The notes under the pieces were generated by a model that was given only the letters and a program-made list of their open reading frames with translations, was not told the origin of the DNA and did no database searches. From Segatella copri (lineage in GTDB: Bacteria; Bacteroidota; Bacteroidia; Bacteroidales; Bacteroidaceae): DNA of 64,000 nt. Each line of letters starts with the position of its first letter. Position 1 is the first letter of the stretch. Of the stretch, positions 32,340 to 41,297 are shown piece after piece. Position numbers and translations under genes: made by a program. The stretch covers positions 1,534,501 through 1,598,500 of the forward strand of contig NZ_CATKVU010000006.1 of assembly GCF_949820605.1 (NCBI RefSeq). The letters are read 5' to 3'.

Positions 32340-34385
32340 ATGAACATAACAACATTCAGCAACATGGCCAGCAAGATTCCTTCACCTGGCCAGTTGGAAG
32401 GCCTGGTAACCTTCATGAAGGAAGATGAGAAACTCAGGTTTTTCACCGAGTCTTACCGGAAAACAGGGAATAAGTCGTACAAGCACGATGCACCCCTCTT
32501 CGCCGTAGCCTGCATCTTCGAAGGCGGAAAAGGCAAGGACAACATCCGGAGCCTCACACATCTGTCACTGGTCGACTTCGACCACATCACAGAAAAACCG
32601 GATGACGGCACCCTGCGCTCGCTCAAAGAGAGAATCTGCCACGATGCCCACACCCTGCTCTGCTACGTTACCATGAGCGGCAACGGACTGCGCGTCATCT
32701 ACCGCTACGAAGGCGATGATTATCCCGCCGCCTTCGCCATGGGAAACGACTACTACGCGCATCTCATCGGCAAGGAAAGCGATCCGCTCTGCAAGAACAT
32801 CACAAGGCTCAGCGGACTCGCCTACGACCCCGAAGTCTATTTCAATCCTGAAGCCACAGCCTTCAGCGCCGAGGAAATCAGCCATTTCCATTCCGCTACG
32901 CTCAAGACCGCACAGAAGAAAAAGAAACAGGAACGCATCGCCGACTACTACGAGCAGATTGTCAAACCCAAGCTGGAAAACGAAAAAATCAGGTACGAAC
33001 CCGGCAACCACAACCAGTATGTGATGCGGGTGGGCTACATGATGGCAAAGAAACGGTACGACAGGAAAGAAGCCACCCAGTGGGCTATCAGGCAGTTTCC
33101 CGAATACGACGACGTAGAACAGGTATTCAAATCGTGCTACGACAACACCACTCACCCACAGAAGGCGAAGGCAGAAACCGGAAAGATTCCCTATGCCACC
33201 GTAGATGAAATCAAAGACTTCCTCGACGGACATATCAAACTCCGCTTCAACCTCATCACCCTGCGCTACGAGTATCTGAAGGGGAAATGGCGAATCCTCC
33301 AGGACCGCGATCTGAATACGCAATGGAGCAACATGTCGCTAACCGCAAGGGTGAGCAAGAGCGACATGATCAATGTCATCGAGAGCGACTATACCCCGCC
33401 CTACAATCCCTTCACCGATTATCTGGAGAATCTCCCACCCTGGCAGGAAGGCGACAAGGACTATATTGCCGAACTCGCTGCCACGGTAAAGATGAAGGGA
33501 GACCCCGTGATGCCCTTCTGTGAAGCCCTCAGGAAATGGCTCGTGGCGATGATAGCAGGATGGATAGACGAAGGTGCCGTCAACAATGTCATCCTGGTGT
33601 TCATCGGCAGACAGGGCGCCTACAAGACCACCTGGTTCAACTATCTCCTGCCGCCTGAACTGAAGCAATACTTCTATACGAAGGCGAATGCCAGGCGCAT
33701 GACGAAGGATGATATCATCGCCCTTTCGCAGTATGCACTCATCTGTTATGAAGAGCTCGACACGATGAGTCCGTCGGAACTGAACCAGCTGAAGGCTGTG
33801 GTAACGATGCAGTATACCAACGAAAGGGCGGCATACGGCCATTATGCCGAGCAGCGCAAACATATCAACACCTTCTGCGGCACGGGCAACAATCCCGAGT
33901 TTTTGAGCGACCCTACCGGTAACCGTCGCTGGCTGCCCTACGAGATAGAGAGCATCCTCTCACCCCGTGAGCATCCGTTCAATTACGAAGGCATCTACGC
34001 CCAGGCTTACGCCCTCTACAAGAGTGATTTCCGCTATTGGTTCACCGATGAGGAGATAGAAAAGCAGAACCGGCACAACCGCGCTTTTGAGGCGCCCCGA
34101 CTAGAACAGGAACTTGTGGATCTCTACTTCCGAAAGCCAACGGAGGCGGAGACAGGGGAGTTCGTGTCCATAGCCAGAGCGATGCAGATCATCAGTTGCA
34201 ACATCTCCCAGAAGCTGAGCAGCACCAAGCTGGGCAGAGCTTTCAATGATCTCGGATTCGAAAAGATGCGCACCACCTACAACCGTGGTTACAGGGCGAT
34301 TATCCGTACTGCCGAGGAAATCAAGGCATACCAGGTATCCCTCTGCATCAACTCGCAGCATTCCGATGATGATGCCCCGTTCTAG
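32340..34385 (+). CDS. VirE-type primase/helicase protein of a mobile island
   Basis: 681 residues. The N-terminal ~200 residues match the BT4734/VirE-N primase-like domain: LSLVDFDHI with aspartates and MSGNGLRVIYRY. The middle is a linker. Residues ~330-560 are a VirE/SF3-like ATPase with Walker A GRQGAYKTTWF (~423-433), Walker B ALICYEELDTMS and the downstream FCGTGNNPEFLSDPTGNRRW, as in phage/plasmid replication proteins. Family members sit beside DUF4248, HU-type and amidase genes in Bacteroidales, as here. Likely a replication protein of an integrative element or satellite; activity is inferred. It has its own promoter. Confidence 0.9.
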   Translation: MNITTFSNMASKIPSPGQLEGLVTFMKEDEKLRFFTESYRKTGNKSYKHDAPLFAVACIFEGGKGKDNIRSLTHLSLVDFDHITEKPDDGTLRSLKERICHDAHTLLCYVTMSGNGLRVIYRYEGDDYPAAFAMGNDYYAHLIGKESDPLCKNITRLSGLAYDPEVYFNPEATAFSAEEISHFHSATLKTAQKKKKQERIADYYEQIVKPKLENEKIRYEPGNHNQYVMRVGYMMAKKRYDRKEATQWAIRQFPEYDDVEQVFKSCYDNTTHPQKAKAETGKIPYATVDEIKDFLDGHIKLRFNLITLRYEYLKGKWRILQDRDLNTQWSNMSLTARVSKSDMINVIESDYTPPYNPFTDYLENLPPWQEGDKDYIAELAATVKMKGDPVMPFCEALRKWLVAMIAGWIDEGAVNNVILVFIGRQGAYKTTWFNYLLPPELKQYFYTKANARRMTKDDIIALSQYALICYEELDTMSPSELNQLKAVVTMQYTNERAAYGHYAEQRKHINTFCGTGNNPEFLSDPTGNRRWLPYEIESILSPREHPFNYEGIYAQAYALYKSDFRYWFTDEEIEKQNRHNRAFEAPRLEQELVDLYFRKPTEAETGEFVSIARAMQIISCNISQKLSSTKLGRAFNDLGFEKMRTTYNRGYRAIIRTAEEIKAYQVSLCINSQHSDDDAPF

Positions 34386-34736: not shown

Positions 34737-34946
34737 ATGGATTTAAGAAGTTATACCAAGCAAGAGCTAGCTCTTCTGTATTTTCCCGATGCTACTCCAG
34801 CGGTAGCCAGTGCTCACCTGATGCGATGGATCCAGCGCATCCCCGACCTTCTCCAGAAGCTCGCCGCCACCGGTTACGGCAAGAACTGCAAGGAGTTCAC
34901 CCCGATGCAAGTCTCCTACATCCTCTACTTCCTCGGTGAACCCTAA
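34737..34946 (+). CDS. DUF4248 family protein
   Basis: 69 residues: MDLRSYTKQELALLYFPD, then a helical middle HLMRWIQRIPDLLQKL and FTPMQVSYILYFLGEP. This is the DUF4248 pattern seen beside VirE-type genes in Bacteroidales islands. It looks like a small helix-turn-helix (TKQELALLYFPDATPAVAS resembling MerR/excisionase-type DNA recognition), but function is unknown. No clear promoter, only the repeat array immediately upstream. Confidence 0.85.
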   Translation: MDLRSYTKQELALLYFPDATPAVASAHLMRWIQRIPDLLQKLAATGYGKNCKEFTPMQVSYILYFLGEP

Positions 34947-35019
34947 CCCTGTTCCTACTAATCTGAAAATGAACCAACAAAAGGTACTTCTACCTGAAGA
35001 CATCATGCAATAGGGAAAA

Positions 35020-35127
35020 GGGTCTATACACCCTTTTGTCGAGGTGTATAGACCCTTGTCAACCAAGTTAATTGCAGATTTACTATATTATTCGGGCTTT
35101 GTATCAAAGAAACCGATGAACCAGACC
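35020..35127 (-). repeat. ~110-bp 3' element with terminator hairpin, copy R1
   Basis: On the minus strand it follows the 47-aa gene by 33 bases: CCGAATAATATAGTAAATCTGC..TTAACTTGGTTGACAAGGG in parts, ending in a 13-bp hairpin GGGTCTATACACC/GGTGTATAGACCC and TTTTCCC. It is almost identical to R2 (35454-35565). Confidence 0.9.
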
Positions 35128-35160
35128 TTATAAGGAGAATGAAAATTGAGGCGAGTTAAG

Positions 35161-35304
35161 TTAAAGGCATGCATAACAGTCTGCAGCCTCCTCTCGTGCT
35201 TTAGCAAAGTCTATTTGAGCCTTTGCTTCCATTTCTTTTTTACGTCTAACCATATCTCGTAATACAGCAATTGCTTCTTCACGAGTTTTAATTTTTAAAG
35301 CCAT
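35161..35304 (-). CDS. 47-residue helical protein with a strong promoter
   Basis: ATG 35304 to TAA 35161. The product (MALKIKTREEAIAVLRDMVR, then RKKEMEAKAQIDFAKAREEA, ending ADCYACL) is a highly charged single helix or short coiled coil with two cysteines at the end. Not recognised. Support that it is real: a near-perfect promoter (TTTG 35368-35371, 19 bases, TATCTTTGC 35340-35348) 36 bases upstream of the ATG and a terminator-bearing 3' element (R1). It stands alone between DUF4248 and the ATPase-PIN operon. Confidence 0.7.
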   Translation of the reverse strand: MALKIKTREEAIAVLRDMVRRKKEMEAKAQIDFAKAREEAADCYACL

Positions 35305-35339
35305 ACTTATTCATTTTAAAGTTCTACTTCTTGTTGGTT

Positions 35340-35371
35340 GCAAAGATAAGCTTTTATTTTGAAAATGCAAA
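35340..35371 (-). promoter_or_regulatory. promoter of the 47-residue protein gene
   Basis: Minus strand TTTG (35368-35371), 19-base spacer, TATCTTTGC (35340-35348). Confidence 0.75.
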
Positions 35372-35453
35372 GAAAACGGGAGAAAAGTTTCGGGAAAATT
35401 TGGATTCCCGTATTTTAAAAGATAAAAGATAGCCATTCCATGCCACAAATGAA

Positions 35454-35565
35454 GGGTCTATACGCCACCTTTTCTTCGTGGTATATAGACCCTTGTCAAC
35501 CAAGTTAATTGCAGATTTACTACTATTATTCGGGCTTTGTATCAAAGAAACCAATAAACCAGACT
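35454..35565 (-). repeat. ~110-bp 3' element with terminator hairpin, copy R2
   Basis: Same 3' element as R1, here 58 bases after the stop of the wHTH fragment on the minus strand. The hairpin is a diverged version (GGGTCTATA/TATAGACCC with a changed middle). Confidence 0.9.
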
Positions 35566-35623
35566 CTAGTGTCTCCCATATGGATTGGGAATTCTTTACT
35601 ATTTCATTTTCTACTCAGGGTTT

Positions 35624-35857
35624 CTACAATTCCTTTACGGTAAATTTCGCCTTGCTATTGTATACGGTGGCATCATTATTGGATAAACCAAGGCGTTCCA
35701 TGATCTCTGCGGTGGTTCGAGGAACTGAACAGAAATTGACTATATCCCTTTGCTTATTAGACAATGACACTTTTGGAGTGTCAGAGTGTCTAAGTCGAGT
35801 GTCAGAGTCATTCTCAGAAGTGTCATGGTCGGTGTCATTATGCCATGCATGGCGTTA
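35624..35857 (-). pseudogene. C-terminal winged-helix fragment of an AlbA/RecG-like or Fic-type protein
   Basis: Open minus-strand stretch ending at TAG 35624-35626. It reads an Asp/Thr-rich linker (NDTDHDTSENDSDT...), then PKVSLSNKQRDIVNFCSVPR and TTAEIMERLGLSNND. This wHTH tail is what I expect at the C-terminus of Bacteroidales ATP-binding/Fic-type regulators. There is no start codon in frame and the front of the gene is gone. The linker's GACACT repeats explain the repeated AGTGTCA words seen here on the plus strand. Confidence 0.6.
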
Positions 35858-35903
35858 GGGATCCGTTAGGCGTTCCTGCGGACTTGCGTATCTCCCTAAC
35901 GCC
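35852..35903. repeat. inverted repeat after the PIN gene
   Basis: GGCGTTAGGG (35852-35861) pairs with CCCTAACGCC (35894-35903); GCGGACTTGC occurs twice between and beside the arms. Just 3' of the PIN gene on the minus strand; may act as its terminator or mark an old insertion junction. Confidence 0.6.
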
Positions 35904-35925
35904 TAGCGGACTTGCAAAGCTTGAG

Positions 35926-36429
35926 TCATTTTCTTCTTCTCCTAGGGATTTCAACCGTAGGCTCATAAGCTTTCAATCCTTCATCACCAGTAAAGATTTC
36001 AACCTGATATCCTAAATCAGTATAATATTTTACGACTTCAACGATAGAAGCATCGCCTAAAGCTTGCCCTCCTATAACGGTAGCCTTCCACTTCTCTGCC
36101 AACTTTTTTAAGTTTTCAGGATTCCACAAACTGCTTTGTTCCGTAAATGCAGCCCATGGTGATTTCTCATCAGCCGAATCGATCATGATTTGAGCAAAAT
36201 CTTCACCTAATGACTTTCTATCGCCCGAAGAATGAGCTATATGATTTCCTGTCTCAATAATTGTTGCTAGAGGCAGAATAAAGGTTGTACCTTTCTTCTT
36301 TTCTTCCTCTATTTTCTCAGAGACCATCTTGTATGAAACCAAGGCATTGCTTGGGCCACAAGTTTCCTTGCCAGGTACTTTGAGCCAAACACAAAGTACA
36401 CTCGTATCTATCACCAATACCTTTCTCAT
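35926..36429 (-). CDS. PIN-like nuclease-domain protein, partner of the AAA ATPase
   Basis: 167 residues. PIN-type acidic positions are visible: D8 in VLVIDTSVLCVW, glutamate in LATIIETGNH, aspartate in ALGDASIVEVV and aspartate in EIFTGDEGL. PIN domains usually cut RNA. The C-terminus is basic (IPRRRRK). The start overlaps the ATPase stop by one base (TAATG), so the two are translated together. The pair sits inside a mobile island between replication and cell-wall genes, where cargo often lies. A two-gene ATPase plus nuclease layout is typical of phage-defence systems; I cannot match it to a named one. Confidence 0.75.
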   Translation of the reverse strand: MRKVLVIDTSVLCVWLKVPGKETCGPSNALVSYKMVSEKIEEEKKKGTTFILPLATIIETGNHIAHSSGDRKSLGEDFAQIMIDSADEKSPWAAFTEQSSLWNPENLKKLAEKWKATVIGGQALGDASIVEVVKYYTDLGYQVEIFTGDEGLKAYEPTVEIPRRRRK

Positions 36430-37517
36430 TATATCTTATCATTAACCATCATTCTACCTATTGTTCCAGAAGCCATCAATTTGGCAAGATTCTCTTTTTC
36501 TTCCAAGAGATTGACATGGCTATCGCCATGCTCATCACGGGTAACATAGCTGATAAACGGAATCATCTTATTTCCCAACTCATCCAACAAAACAGGATTA
36601 TGCGTCGTACAGAGCACATCAACCTGGCGCTGTCGTGACAAATCCTTCAACATATCAACCAACTCCTTGGCACGAGAAGGATGCAAGCCATTATCCACCT
36701 CTTCTATAAGCAGTAAGCTATGAGGTGCAACCGTCAAAAGAGCTACGACAATCGCAATAAAACGAAGCGTTCCATCACTCATACCTCTTGCATCAACAGG
36801 CTGTTCAGGATTCCAATCCTCATAACAATAAAGCATGGCATCTGACTTAATCAGACCAACAGGCTCAGATATAACCTTGTTTATATCACGTTCAGGAAGT
36901 GGCCGAACATAGCTGGACACCAGTGCTTCCACCTTCTTCTTTTCCTCTGGAGACAACGCACATAAAACACCTGCTACATTACTACCATCAGACTTCAGCT
37001 CTTTGGAAATCTTGCAGTAATCACGCATCTTAGCAGGAACAGGATCAAGAATGACGATATTTCTAAAAGTAGCATATATCTTTGCCCAAAAATCCAGAAG
37101 TATTGGAACATCATACGTTTTCCATGTCATGTTGCGAGCAGAATCAATAAACTCACCAGGAACGGCATCATCGTCTTCTATACCCAAACGACGGATTTCA
37201 CAAGAACCAAAACTGAAAACTGAATTCCGTTTAATCACTCTCAAATCAAGAAGATAATAACTTCCTTCAATTTCTATTTCTATCTCAATACAGAAGAAAT
37301 CCTCACCTCTACGGATAATCCAGTCTTCCCCACCTCTAACAGTCTGGATGGCATCAAGAAGGCTCTTACCTTCCCCCACGGCACGGAGGAAGGCAAATGC
37401 ATCTAACACATTTGACTTACCACTAGCATTGGTTCCGATAAGGATACCCAAAGAATCGATATATATAGTAGAGTCCTTAAAGCTCTTCCAATTTTGTAAC
37501 CTAATCTTTGTAATCAT
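36429..37517 (-). CDS. AAA family ATPase (AAA_21/RecF-OLD-like), first gene of an ATPase-PIN operon
   Basis: 362 residues. Walker A GTNASGKSNVLDAF (~28-41) follows a RecF-like start KIRLQNWKSFKDS. The ABC-signature region is ARGMSDGTLRFIAIVVALL, Walker B SLLLIEEVDNGLHP, and the switch VLCTTHNPVLLDEL. There is no long coiled coil and no TOPRIM domain, so it is shorter than OLD nucleases. Promoter TAGCTTTGC (37552-37560) with CTTG 20 bases further out. It diverges from the HU-HIG gene. Likely senses or is triggered by DNA and controls the coupled PIN nuclease; that is inference from similar ATPase/nuclease pairs. Confidence 0.85.
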   Translation of the reverse strand: MITKIRLQNWKSFKDSTIYIDSLGILIGTNASGKSNVLDAFAFLRAVGEGKSLLDAIQTVRGGEDWIIRRGEDFFCIEIEIEIEGSYYLLDLRVIKRNSVFSFGSCEIRRLGIEDDDAVPGEFIDSARNMTWKTYDVPILLDFWAKIYATFRNIVILDPVPAKMRDYCKISKELKSDGSNVAGVLCALSPEEKKKVEALVSSYVRPLPERDINKVISEPVGLIKSDAMLYCYEDWNPEQPVDARGMSDGTLRFIAIVVALLTVAPHSLLLIEEVDNGLHPSRAKELVDMLKDLSRQRQVDVLCTTHNPVLLDELGNKMIPFISYVTRDEHGDSHVNLLEEKENLAKLMASGTIGRMMVNDKI

Positions 37518-37676
37518 TGCCCATGTTTATTTAAACTCAATAATATATTTTGCAAAGCTAATCATTTTTTCTGAGATAAACAAGAAAATCGCAACATTTC
37601 TAAAAGAATCTATGAAAAAGTATGATAAAACATGAGCAAGTATGAGCAACTGTGAGTTGACCCCTCACCGATTTCG

Positions 37677-37783: not shown

Positions 37784-38335
37784 ATGATTCTGTACACATT
37801 GAAGAAGTATGTCAACGAGAAGTTGAGCGCCGCTAACGGCAAGTTTTTCGCCTACCCTGTAATCACCCAGACCTATGGTCTTGATGAACTCGCAGAGCAC
37901 ATGGAAAGTCACAACACCCCGTTCTCAAAGGGAGCCATCAAGGGAATGCTCACCGATATGGTGAGCTGCGTAAGAGAACTGGTTCTGCAGGGTATCGCCG
38001 TGAAGATTCCCGACCTCGCCATTTTCAGCATCGGCATCAAGAACAAGGAAGGTGCTGCCTCCGAGAAGGAGTTCAGCATCACCAAGAACATTGCCGGACT
38101 GAAGCTCCGTGCACGTGGCACCGGTGAGTTCAAGGCAAACAGTCTGAACCTCGATGCATCCCTGAAGAAGGCTACAGCCGTAACAGGAGATGTTACTCCA
38201 CCAGACGGCGGTAAGGACAACACAGGCGATACTACCCAGGGTGGCGGCACAAACCAGGGTGGCGACTCAACACAGACTGGCGGATCAGGCAACACCGAGA
38301 GCAGCGGCTCCGATGGTAGCGACGGCCTGGAGTAA
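37784..38335 (+). CDS. HU-like DNA-binding protein with glycine-rich tail (HU-HIG type)
   Basis: 183 residues from ATG 37784; the frame to 37682 overlaps the promoter. Residues 1-125 are the divergent HU fold (MILYTLKKYVNEKL, FSKGAIKGMLTDMVSCVREL, LQGIAVKIPDLAIFSIGI). Residues ~135-183 are glycine/threonine/asparagine-rich and disordered (TTQGGGTNQGG, GSGNTESSGSDGSDGLE). Belongs to the HU domain fused to a glycine-rich motif class typical of Bacteroidales islands. Probably coats or organises island DNA. First gene of the module with smalltalk and amidase. Confidence 0.85.
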   Translation: MILYTLKKYVNEKLSAANGKFFAYPVITQTYGLDELAEHMESHNTPFSKGAIKGMLTDMVSCVRELVLQGIAVKIPDLAIFSIGIKNKEGAASEKEFSITKNIAGLKLRARGTGEFKANSLNLDASLKKATAVTGDVTPPDGGKDNTGDTTQGGGTNQGGDSTQTGGSGNTESSGSDGSDGLE

Positions 38336-38671: not shown

Positions 38672-39106
38672 ATGAAAAACACAAGAAAAATCTCACTTAT
38701 TGTCATCCACTGTTCTGCCACACGCGTCACCCAGGACTTCACCTTCGAAAAGCTCGAAGCCTGTCATTTAGCCCGTGGTTTCCGCAGCATCGGTTATCAC
38801 TATTACATCACGAAAGACGGCGTCATCTACCCCGGACGTCCCGAGTCAGAAATCGGCGCCCACGCCCGCCATTTCAATGCACACAGTATCGGCATCTGTT
38901 ACGAAGGCGGTCTCGACGCCGACGGCAATCCGGCAGATACCCGTACGAAGGCTCAGAAGCAGTCGCTCCAGAATCTCCTGACGAGTCTGTGCGTAGACTA
39001 TCCCGAAGCCGAGATCCTAGGTCATCGTGATCTCCCGAACGTCCACAAGTCCTGTCCCTGCTTCAGTGTCCAGGCTTGGCTGAATGAAATCAAATTCCAC
39101 ATTTAG
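38672..39106 (+). CDS. N-acetylmuramoyl-L-alanine amidase (amidase_2)
   Basis: 144 residues, the size of a T7-lysozyme-type zinc amidase that cleaves the bond between MurNAc and the stem peptide. Visible: SLIVIHCSAT (first zinc histidine), GFRSIGYHYYITKDGVIY, HARHFNAHSIGICYEGG, and the C-terminal ILGHRDLPNVHKSCPCF with the last zinc ligands. No signal peptide, so export would need a holin-like path or cell lysis. It lies 26 bases after the smalltalk gene. In this setting it resembles a phage endolysin kept by a mobile island; that is inference. Confidence 0.93.
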   Translation: MKNTRKISLIVIHCSATRVTQDFTFEKLEACHLARGFRSIGYHYYITKDGVIYPGRPESEIGAHARHFNAHSIGICYEGGLDADGNPADTRTKAQKQSLQNLLTSLCVDYPEAEILGHRDLPNVHKSCPCFSVQAWLNEIKFHI

Positions 39107-39156: not shown

Positions 39157-41082
39157 GAGGGTGTGTCATAAGTCTGTGACGCACCCCTTTTTATTTTTTG
39201 CCTTTTCACAGATACGAAATCTTTAAAAAACATTTTTATTTACAACAAAGCCCAAACTTTCACAAGCTCGGGCTTTGCCTTTCCGCAAAAGATTTGTATC
39301 TTTGCAGAAAACTTCTTTAAGTATGGCAAAGATACAAATAAAATCTGAAACTCGGCACGAATTGAGCTTTTTTCCTAACTCTTTCGATGATTATGTGCCA
39401 AAAGACAGCAAAGTTCGTATGGTGGATCGTATTGTTCGCAGTATGGACATCAACCCTCTCATGGATACCTATGATGGGATTGGTGCTCCTCCTTACAGTC
39501 CGAAGATGCTTCTAAGTTTAGTTGTTTTTGCCTATATCAATGGCATTTATTCCTGTCGTGGCATAGCGGACGCACTTAAATACGATGTTCGCTATATGTG
39601 GATTTGTGGAGGTAAGCAATTATCTTTCGCAACAATCAACCGCTTTAGATCCCATCATATGATTAAATGCATCGACTTCTATTTTGATGCGGTCGTCTCC
39701 ATATTGGTTGAAAAGGGCGTGATTAGTCTGGAGGAACAATATGTTGATGGCACTAAGATAGAGTCGAAAGCAAACAAGTACACGTTTGTATGGAAGAAGA
39801 CTGTGGAAAAGAACAGGGCTAAGCTCTTGGAAAAGACCTCTGCTGCATTGGCTCAGATAAAAGAACAAATTCGCCTGAATGGCGGGAGTGACATTAGGGA
39901 AGAAGACAGCGAGCCAGCCACTTCCGCCAGGGATGTAGAGAGAAGTGCACGTTTGTGTGAGAGGCAAGCTAAGAACCTTCCTAAGGCAAAACTTACAGGA
40001 AGAGAGAAGCAAAAGCTAAATACTCAGATAGATCACTTGTTCAAAGCCTCGGACAAACTGCGCGAGTATGAAAAATCACTGGATATACTGGGTGAGAGAA
40101 ACAGTTACTCCAAGACTGATCCCGATGCGACCTTCATGCGCCTCAAGGAAGATGCCATGAACAATGGGCAGACAAAGCCTGCCTATAACCTTCAAATTGC
40201 GACAGAGAATCAATATTGGACGAATTTCGCCCTTTATCCCAATCCAACAGACACCCTGACCTTCAAGCCTTTTTTGGATAAGTACAAGAAAAGATATGGA
40301 AAGCAATCCAAGAGCGTCACCGCAGACTCAGGGTATGGCTCGGAGGAGAACTACGAGTACCTAGAGATGGAAGAGATGATGGGTTATGTAAAGTACAACT
40401 GGTTTCACAAGGAACAGCATAAGCCTTTCAAGGAGGATGCCTTCAACCAAGCGAACTTCTACTACAACAGGGATGATGACTATTATGTCTGCCCCATGGG
40501 ACAACACATGGAACCTTGTGGACAACGGCAAACGAAAAGTGACTCCGGCTATGTGTCTGTCATTACATTATATAGAGCACAACGATGTGATGGATGTCCG
40601 CTTGGAAGTCTCTGCAAGAAATCCAAAGGCAACAGAACCATATATGTCAACCATAAACTGAATGCATATAAAAAGGAAGCCTTCCTGCTACTAACGTCTC
40701 AAGAGGGCTTGAAACACAGAAGCCAGCGACCGATAGAGCCGGAAGCTGTATTTGGGCAGATGAAGGCAGATATGCATTATAAGCGATTCAGGCATTTCGG
40801 AATGGACAAGGTTTACATGGATCTAGGATTGTTCGGAATGGGATTCAATTTGAAGAAATATTTGGGTATAAAACGATAAAACTCAATTTTGTTTTTTTTA
40901 TCGTCAGGGATAACTATGCCCTTTTGTGAGCTTTGGGGCTGTTTTGTTATCGATAAAACAAGAAAAGTAAAGTTTCTATACAATATAATAAGATTCCCTT
41001 TGTGAAGAAAGACTACGATTCAACTAGAATATATAGAAACACACACAAAAAAGGGTGCGTCACAGACTTATGACACACCCTC
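39157..41082 (+). mobile_element. complete IS1182-type insertion sequence with 30-bp inverted repeats
   Basis: GAGGGTGTGTCATAAGTCTG... at 39157-39186 is the exact reverse complement of 41053-41082. Inside lies one transposase gene (39323-40879). Each terminal repeat is also a hairpin (GGGTGTGTCA/TGACGCACCC) followed by T's, so the left end can terminate the amidase transcript. I see no clear target duplication (CTCT on the left, ATTT on the right). Confidence 0.9.
39323..40879 (+). CDS. IS1182-family transposase
   Basis: 518 residues from ATG 39323; the promoter TATCTTTGC at 39297-39305 rules out the longer frame to 39275. N-terminal DUF772-like domain (YVPKDSKVRMVDRIVRSM, PPYSPKMLLSLVVFAYINGI). 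Catalytic DDE set in YVDGTKIESKANKYTF (first Asp), VTADSGYGSEENYEYL (second Asp) and PEAVFGQMKADMHYKRFRHF (Glu). A cysteine cluster CDGCPLGSLC lies before the last block. Intact, with intact ends, so possibly still active. Confidence 0.95.
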   Translation: MAKIQIKSETRHELSFFPNSFDDYVPKDSKVRMVDRIVRSMDINPLMDTYDGIGAPPYSPKMLLSLVVFAYINGIYSCRGIADALKYDVRYMWICGGKQLSFATINRFRSHHMIKCIDFYFDAVVSILVEKGVISLEEQYVDGTKIESKANKYTFVWKKTVEKNRAKLLEKTSAALAQIKEQIRLNGGSDIREEDSEPATSARDVERSARLCERQAKNLPKAKLTGREKQKLNTQIDHLFKASDKLREYEKSLDILGERNSYSKTDPDATFMRLKEDAMNNGQTKPAYNLQIATENQYWTNFALYPNPTDTLTFKPFLDKYKKRYGKQSKSVTADSGYGSEENYEYLEMEEMMGYVKYNWFHKEQHKPFKEDAFNQANFYYNRDDDYYVCPMGQHMEPCGQRQTKSDSGYVSVITLYRAQRCDGCPLGSLCKKSKGNRTIYVNHKLNAYKKEAFLLLTSQEGLKHRSQRPIEPEAVFGQMKADMHYKRFRHFGMDKVYMDLGLFGMGFNLKKYLGIKR

Positions 41083-41297
41083 ATTTTTGTTCAGGAATCT
41101 GCAAACTTCTTCATAATGAGGAGTATTGCGCCCCCACTTTTCCACTGAAAAGTAGGCTGTAACATGAAATATAAGACATAATTGTTTTAAATAATGTGAA
41201 AAAGTAGCGTAATACTAAACTTTATATGTACTTTTGCATCGAATTATATAAAAATAAGAAACAAATTAAAGAGAAAATATAAAAAAGAAGAAAGGAT

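Follow-up and report, generated by a model that had tools for sequence, protein, structure and literature searches.

In the two-gene PARIS system (AriA/AriB), a hexamer of the ABC ATPase keeps hold of a tRNase and frees its action when a phage protein binds (PMC12409363). The Septu proteins PtuA and PtuB jointly cleave tRNA-Tyr once infection occurs (PMC13096335). VapC-type PIN proteins also cut tRNA (PMC12409363). OLD-ABC ATPases paired with HNH, PD-(D/E)XK or PIN nucleases are reported from 594 taxa, in BREX and related systems, by a 2026 paper (PMC12839542), which cites earlier work for these pairs and mentions the PIN pair in passing. PIN effectors have been validated in other defence systems, namely DS-3 and DS-5 of DefensePredictor (PMC13092281). 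The phage-defence candidates of PADLOC (PDCs) are guilt-by-embedding candidates that are called nonvalidated (PMC10855318), and validation is pending for most of them (PMC12988326). A search of the open-access literature (few subscription papers, no bioRxiv preprints) returned no experimental test of PDC-M07 or of any ABC ATPase-PIN pair, and no validated PIN effector with an ABC ATPase was found in the literature read.

The window, a 64-kb stretch of Segatella copri DNA, carries a gene pair that is, by its profile matches, the phage-defence candidate PDC-M07 of PADLOC-DB 2.0.0. Because its two proteins match PDC-M07A (PDLC04391, 1.1e-130, the best of 151 families) and PDC-M07B (PDLC04394, 6.8e-50), respectively, the pair is already catalogued, as a candidate, and it is a new instance of a known candidate kind. 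The original prediction had called it uncatalogued and had held that the nucleases of such ATPase-nuclease systems are HNH, TOPRIM or similar rather than PIN. The PADLOC search, which it had itself proposed, overturns the first statement, since both components have been listed there since 2023, and the OLD-ABC ATPases found with PIN endoRNases in some taxa (PMC12839542) speak against both. These OLD-ABC and PIN pairs, which are among the BREX accessory modules of that paper, are likened to PDC-M07 by domain pair only; relatives of the window pair also lie next to pglX. Several points of the earlier interpretation are supported: the two genes form a pair and an operon, the larger product is an ATPase of ABC type, the smaller one has the predicted fold and the active-site residues of a PIN protein, the setting is mobile and, by context, a role in defence is indicated.

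Gene pair, motifs and predicted folds

The following features were placed in the window:

37517..36429, minus strand: PDC-M07A-type ABC (OLD/Rad50-like) ATPase gene, 362 aa
36429..35926, minus strand: PDC-M07B-type PIN nuclease gene, 167 aa, overlapping the ATPase gene by 1 bp
37583..37553, minus strand: match to the Bacteroidetes-type promoter TTG-N20-TAGCTTTG, 5' of the ATPase gene, from a pattern search
35930..37601, strand not assigned: cassette of the promoter match and both genes, edges set by genome comparison

Both ORFs are real and share a single base inside TAATG, as had been claimed. The TTG-N20-TAGCTTTG pattern, which we take to be the Bacteroidetes-type promoter consensus, has 10 matches in the 64-kb window against 0.61 expected, and the predicted promoter of the pair's own is thus borne out as a consensus match, that is, as a putative promoter; a sigma-70 scan gave 9 matches against 6.5 expected and is hence uninformative. 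The original prediction had extended the locus to 37560, which runs past the ATPase start at 37517 and truncates the promoter match, the cassette edge lying at about 37601.

All six PADLOC matches of the small protein are to PDC-M07B models, and every one of the 59 sequences in the PIN alignment matches PDC-M07B as well. Four acidic residues of PIN type, D8, E59, D126 and D149, are invariant in 82 of 82 relatives (2 short ORFs left out; L001 and L003, which are the same place, counted twice). The predicted fold, a check that had been named beforehand, is that of a PIN protein, and the nearest solved structures are VapC-type toxins, the closest being VapC20, whose structure entry is titled as a sarcin-ricin-loop-cleaving toxin. 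Foldseek with this model returned nothing at E<=0.001 (best 6.5e-3), and a profile search with the PIN alignment against solved structures gave a chance match only (E 4.2). Pfam and NCBIfam searches of the window protein found no match; across the family, Pfam PIN models barely detect it (best 0.0034, in one of 59 members) and are equalled or beaten by the unrelated family VPR (0.0013, in two of 59 members).

The larger protein, predicted to be a RecF/OLD-like ATPase with Walker A, Walker B and an SDG signature, is an ABC-type ATPase in which these motifs are intact: Walker A G28, N30, G33, K34, S35 and N36, the signature S247-D248-G249, E272 of the Walker B region and H306 are each invariant in 77 of the 77 relatives counted (7 short ATPase ORFs left out; L001 and L003, again one place, counted twice). 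Pfam assigns it to AAA_21 (1.1e-32). The only difference found from PDC-M07 is in length, with 362 aa against roughly 400-430 aa in most relatives; both components are matched and adjacent on one strand, with the 1-base overlap. Its predicted fold is Rad50/PtuA-like, closest by Z to Rad50/SMC heads (22.4), with PtuA of Septu at 20.9, and the model shows no long coiled coil.

The closeness to Rad50/SMC heads would suit a scheme in which the Rad50-like ATPase senses DNA ends or structures and the PIN protein, as a DNase, cuts phage DNA directly, and PIN-like folds do include DNases. We regard this scheme as quite unlikely because, among solved PIN structures, VapC-type toxins come closest, because PtuA has a comparable Z, yet Septu cuts tRNA, and because the ATPase model lacks a long coiled coil.

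Among named systems, PARIS is likely to share the logic of the pair, having two genes for an ABC ATPase sensor and a small nuclease. However, AriB is a Toprim protein, whereas the partner here is PIN by fold and matches PDC-M07B models throughout PADLOC, so that membership in PARIS was rejected. The window ATPase also matches the AriA model (5.1e-32), though far less well than PDC-M07A. Septu was rejected likewise, PtuB being HNH and the nuclease here PIN by fold. For MADS, the ATPase matches NCBIfam MAD3 at 7.5e-27, but with 94.5 bits against a curated cut-off of 420, and PDC-M07A is far better; membership was rejected here too. VapBC is resembled by the small protein in its predicted VapC PIN fold and acidic tetrad; the operon partner, however, is a 362-aa ABC ATPase in place of the small DNA-binding VapB, and no third gene recurs within 1.5 kb in more than 10 of the best 80 of 204 loci, so that VapBC membership was also rejected.

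Linkage, distribution and neighbours

A protein search with the PIN sequence gave 1965 relatives, 120 of them listed. When one genome per species was scanned, 204 PIN relatives were confirmed, of which the best 80 were kept as loci. An ATPase relative lies directly upstream on the same strand in 80 of these 80 best loci, so that the predicted linkage of homologues as a pair holds, and the two genes overlap by four bases in 40 of the best 80 of 204. Larger gaps, of 156 and 236, appear in two of the 80 best loci because an interruption of the frame led to a wrong start for the PIN ORF; the matching PIN sequence directly adjoins the ATPase there too. Pairwise distances of the PIN proteins and of the ATPases are correlated (Spearman 0.757, n=76, 0/999 permutations). 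The ATPase is frameshifted at L007 and its match lacks the first 121 residues at L039, with the PIN ORF intact at both (assembly error not excluded); at L070 it has an in-frame interruption, and at L004 and L046 it is cut off by a contig end.

By record title, the best 80 of 204 loci belong to Cyanobacteriota (29), Bacteroidota (14), Pseudomonadota (10), Desulfobacterota (8), Bacillota (7), Chlorobi-type bacteria (6), Chloroflexota (3), Hydrogenedentota (1) and Cloacimonadota (1), with one unplaced, and thus span about nine phyla. Near the window the cassette is rare: 1 of 199 relatives has it, as do 3 of 301 genomes from the family. The idea that phages or plasmids are the home of these pairs was considered and rejected: none of 17 pattern stretches in IMG/VR viral contigs was confirmed as a relative, 50,697 phage records held no relative, and 3 of 72,556 plasmid records did. 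All three plasmid matches have an upstream gene for an ATP-binding protein, and in two of them the PIN protein is only 31-32% identical.

Genes for pglX or type I restriction were found in the fetched flanks of 12 of the best 80 of 204 loci (13 if L046 is included, which has only the gene shared with the pglX loci), with flanks shortened by contig ends in 33 of the 80. Being embedded in or beside known defence operons, the trait that defines PDCs, is therefore seen for the family in these 12 loci; in the window itself no pglX or type I restriction gene and, beside its pair, no BREX gene was identified, and the slot that holds it carries Abi-type cargo in the nearest genome. Relatives of pglX are present in five of the 80 best loci (L020, L022, L030, L035, L055). 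Type I genes are present in seven of them, hsdR in L023 and L033 and hsdS in L044, L053, L067, L074 and L081. PADLOC was run on hsdR of L033, hsdS of L044, L053 and L074, and pglX of L030 and L055, the last two with very strong matches, while the calls at L020, L022, L023, L035, L067 and L081 are based on tblastn to PADLOC-tested neighbours. The same pglX and restriction queries found nothing in 19 Segatella control regions (0/19), a control that is not phylum-matched. The ATPase ORF overlaps the end of pglX in L022 (16 bases) and in L030 (4 bases), and it follows pglX after 5 bases in L055 and about 2 in L035:

L030:1230-8789; L055:1191-10805; L022:3-5671; L035: PDC-M07 pair directly after pglX, ORFs overlapping or nearly touching

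A downstream gene common to the five pglX loci and to L046 may be pglZ. Pfam PglZ gave matches in all four genomes searched; the one in L055 is placed firmly, from its contig number and coordinates, but at 20.2 against a 25-bit cut-off, the one in L022 fits only if contig C316 is that record, and those in L030 and L035 fall elsewhere, not on the shared gene. The L030 copy had no match among solved structures.

The constant pairing, together with the VapC-like fold and the presence of the cassette on an island and on plasmids, would also suit a toxin-antitoxin (addiction) module, the main rival explanation, in which a VapC-like PIN toxin and an ATPase antitoxin serve to keep the cassette and sense no phage. 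We consider this improbable, since an ABC ATPase of about 360-430 aa stands where a small DNA-binding antitoxin would be expected, and since insertion directly after pglX favours a defence task. The intact PIN genes beside damaged ATPase genes at L039 and L007 count mildly against it, because the PIN protein may then be harmless enough to survive by itself.

No conserved third gene was found, since none recurs within 1.5 kb in more than 10 of the best 80 of 204 loci; the largest ORF cluster there is mutS in cyanobacteria (10 of the 80 best loci, with Pfam run on one member). Over full flanks, mutS lies downstream in 13 of the best 80 of 204 loci, all cyanobacterial:

L017-L019, L058, L063, L065, L066, L069, L072, L077-L079, L082: mutS in the downstream flank

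These neighbours hint at stable chromosomal inheritance in the cyanobacterial group, which would be expected of a housekeeping pair for RNA or DNA maintenance that happens to travel. Against such a role stand the very patchy occurrence near the window (1/199 relatives, 3/301 genomes), the range of about nine phyla that the record titles give and the pglX or type I restriction neighbours, and we judge it highly improbable.

A wider neighbour scan, drawing on 30 of the 80 best loci, covered 135 of 207 ORFs with a length of 150 aa or more. It showed no dominant defence family (288 PADLOC families at 1e-10, each in at most 3 members), and among hand-picked neighbours 11 of 19 (7/10 and 4/9) had no PADLOC match at 1e-20. 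Like the cyanobacterial mutS neighbours, these outcomes weigh against a role in defence only. Because no PADLOC family exceeded three members, only the named pglX and restriction neighbours were counted, and a general defence-island statistic was dropped. As a separate observation, Anabaena carries a second AAA_21 ATPase upstream of its M07 pair (L066:2757-3947; PADLOC HEC-01A, 6.7e-188), with relatives in L068 and L069, so that two related ATPase systems stand side by side.

Proposed function

By computation, the two proteins have the folds and intact motifs described above, their genes keep a fixed order and diverge together, and in part of the family they are placed near restriction and BREX genes. 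With the same anatomy as PARIS and Septu and a PIN effector, we infer that the M07 ATPase is the sensor of infection and that it sets free or licenses a PIN RNase, and we think it probable, on balance, that PDC-M07 is a defence cassette acting by abortive infection. Complex formation, the phage trigger, the RNA target and the abortive outcome are inferred by analogy, and for the predicted pair such a mechanism is plausible. A sensor complex formed by the ABC-type ATPase would hold or license the PIN protein and would be switched by a phage-derived cue. The PIN protein would then cut host RNA, the likeliest targets being a tRNA or the sarcin-ricin loop of 23S rRNA (rRNA cutting by VapC-type proteins is known here from the title of the VapC20 structure), upon which translation would stop and the infection would be aborted.

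A more specific version, which we put forward tentatively, is that PDC-M07 might be a VapC-armed branch of the ABC-ATPase immune systems that guards restriction and BREX systems. Its ATPase would detect the anti-restriction factors of phages, in the way that PARIS detects Ocr, and would fire the PIN RNase as a suicide backup. This version would explain why the pair sits directly after pglX, in front of the pglZ-like gene, and next to type I specificity genes, and also why it is swapped with other Abi cargo in the Segatella slot described below.

If the defence role is true, VapC-like PIN RNases, which are familiar mainly as parts of toxin-antitoxin modules, would also be effectors under ABC-ATPase sensors, and the set of nucleases known for this sensor class would be wider. 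The compact cassette, found over about nine phyla, would have a trigger and an RNA target open to tests in laboratory strains.

The cargo slot in Segatella

The pair had been predicted to lie inside a mobile island, and Pfam confirms four of the flanking genes, the transposase-like ORF being called by eye only:

32340..34385, plus strand: VapE-like gene of the left anchor block (Pfam VapE-like_dom 2e-33; 97% protein identity in G001)
34737..34946, plus strand: DUF4248 gene, left anchor of the cargo slot (PF14053 3.8e-27; G001 protein 100% identical)
37784..38335, plus strand: HU-like (HU-HIG) gene, right anchor (PF18291 2.2e-11; 98% in G001)
38672..39106, plus strand: N-acetylmuramoyl-L-alanine amidase gene of the right anchor block (Amidase_2 1.5e-20; 99% in G001)
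39275-40879, strand not given: transposase-like ORF, by eye only

In G001, the nearest genome, the four anchor genes recur at 97-100% protein identity, with 8.3 kb of different cargo between DUF4248 and HU (L136:3914-12221 versus 34958-37602 of the window), which includes a DUF1016 nuclease (PDC-S02), an Abi_2 protein (AbiD), an AAA_14/DUF4143 ATPase (PDC-S01) and further ORFs. Among the 20 regions fetched, L137, L141, L143 and L147 have the four anchor genes in the same order with a slot of only about 175-350 bases, and L155 has a distant HU match and a slot of about 0.9 kb. The interval between DUF4248 and HU thus looks like a variable cargo slot that holds PDC-M07, Abi cargo or, in paralogous blocks, nearly nothing.

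Positions 35930-37601 are common at 94% to G043:C8 and an S. copri plasmid, with the same end points. The flanks of these two copies, both in S. copri, are common to each other and not to the window, and because they match each other the two copies represent one context. The DNA common to the cassette copies ends at 37601 and the DNA shared with G001 starts at 37602. Since the one sharing starts where the other stops, the promoter and the two genes appear to move together, into a slot that is open to other Abi-type cargo, as judged from one locus in two genomes.

About 2 kb at 39157-41186, holding the transposase-like ORF, are missing from the homologous place in G001, and a transposase-like ORF, again by eye, also occurs in the G001 slot cargo. 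Beside the slot lie an 18-nt inverted repeat and a direct repeat of ~98 nt, spaced by about 437 bases (35015-35060, 35466-35564); part of this repeat element has matches in 3 of 60 genomes, and a piece of it recurs in the G001 slot and at a few further places.
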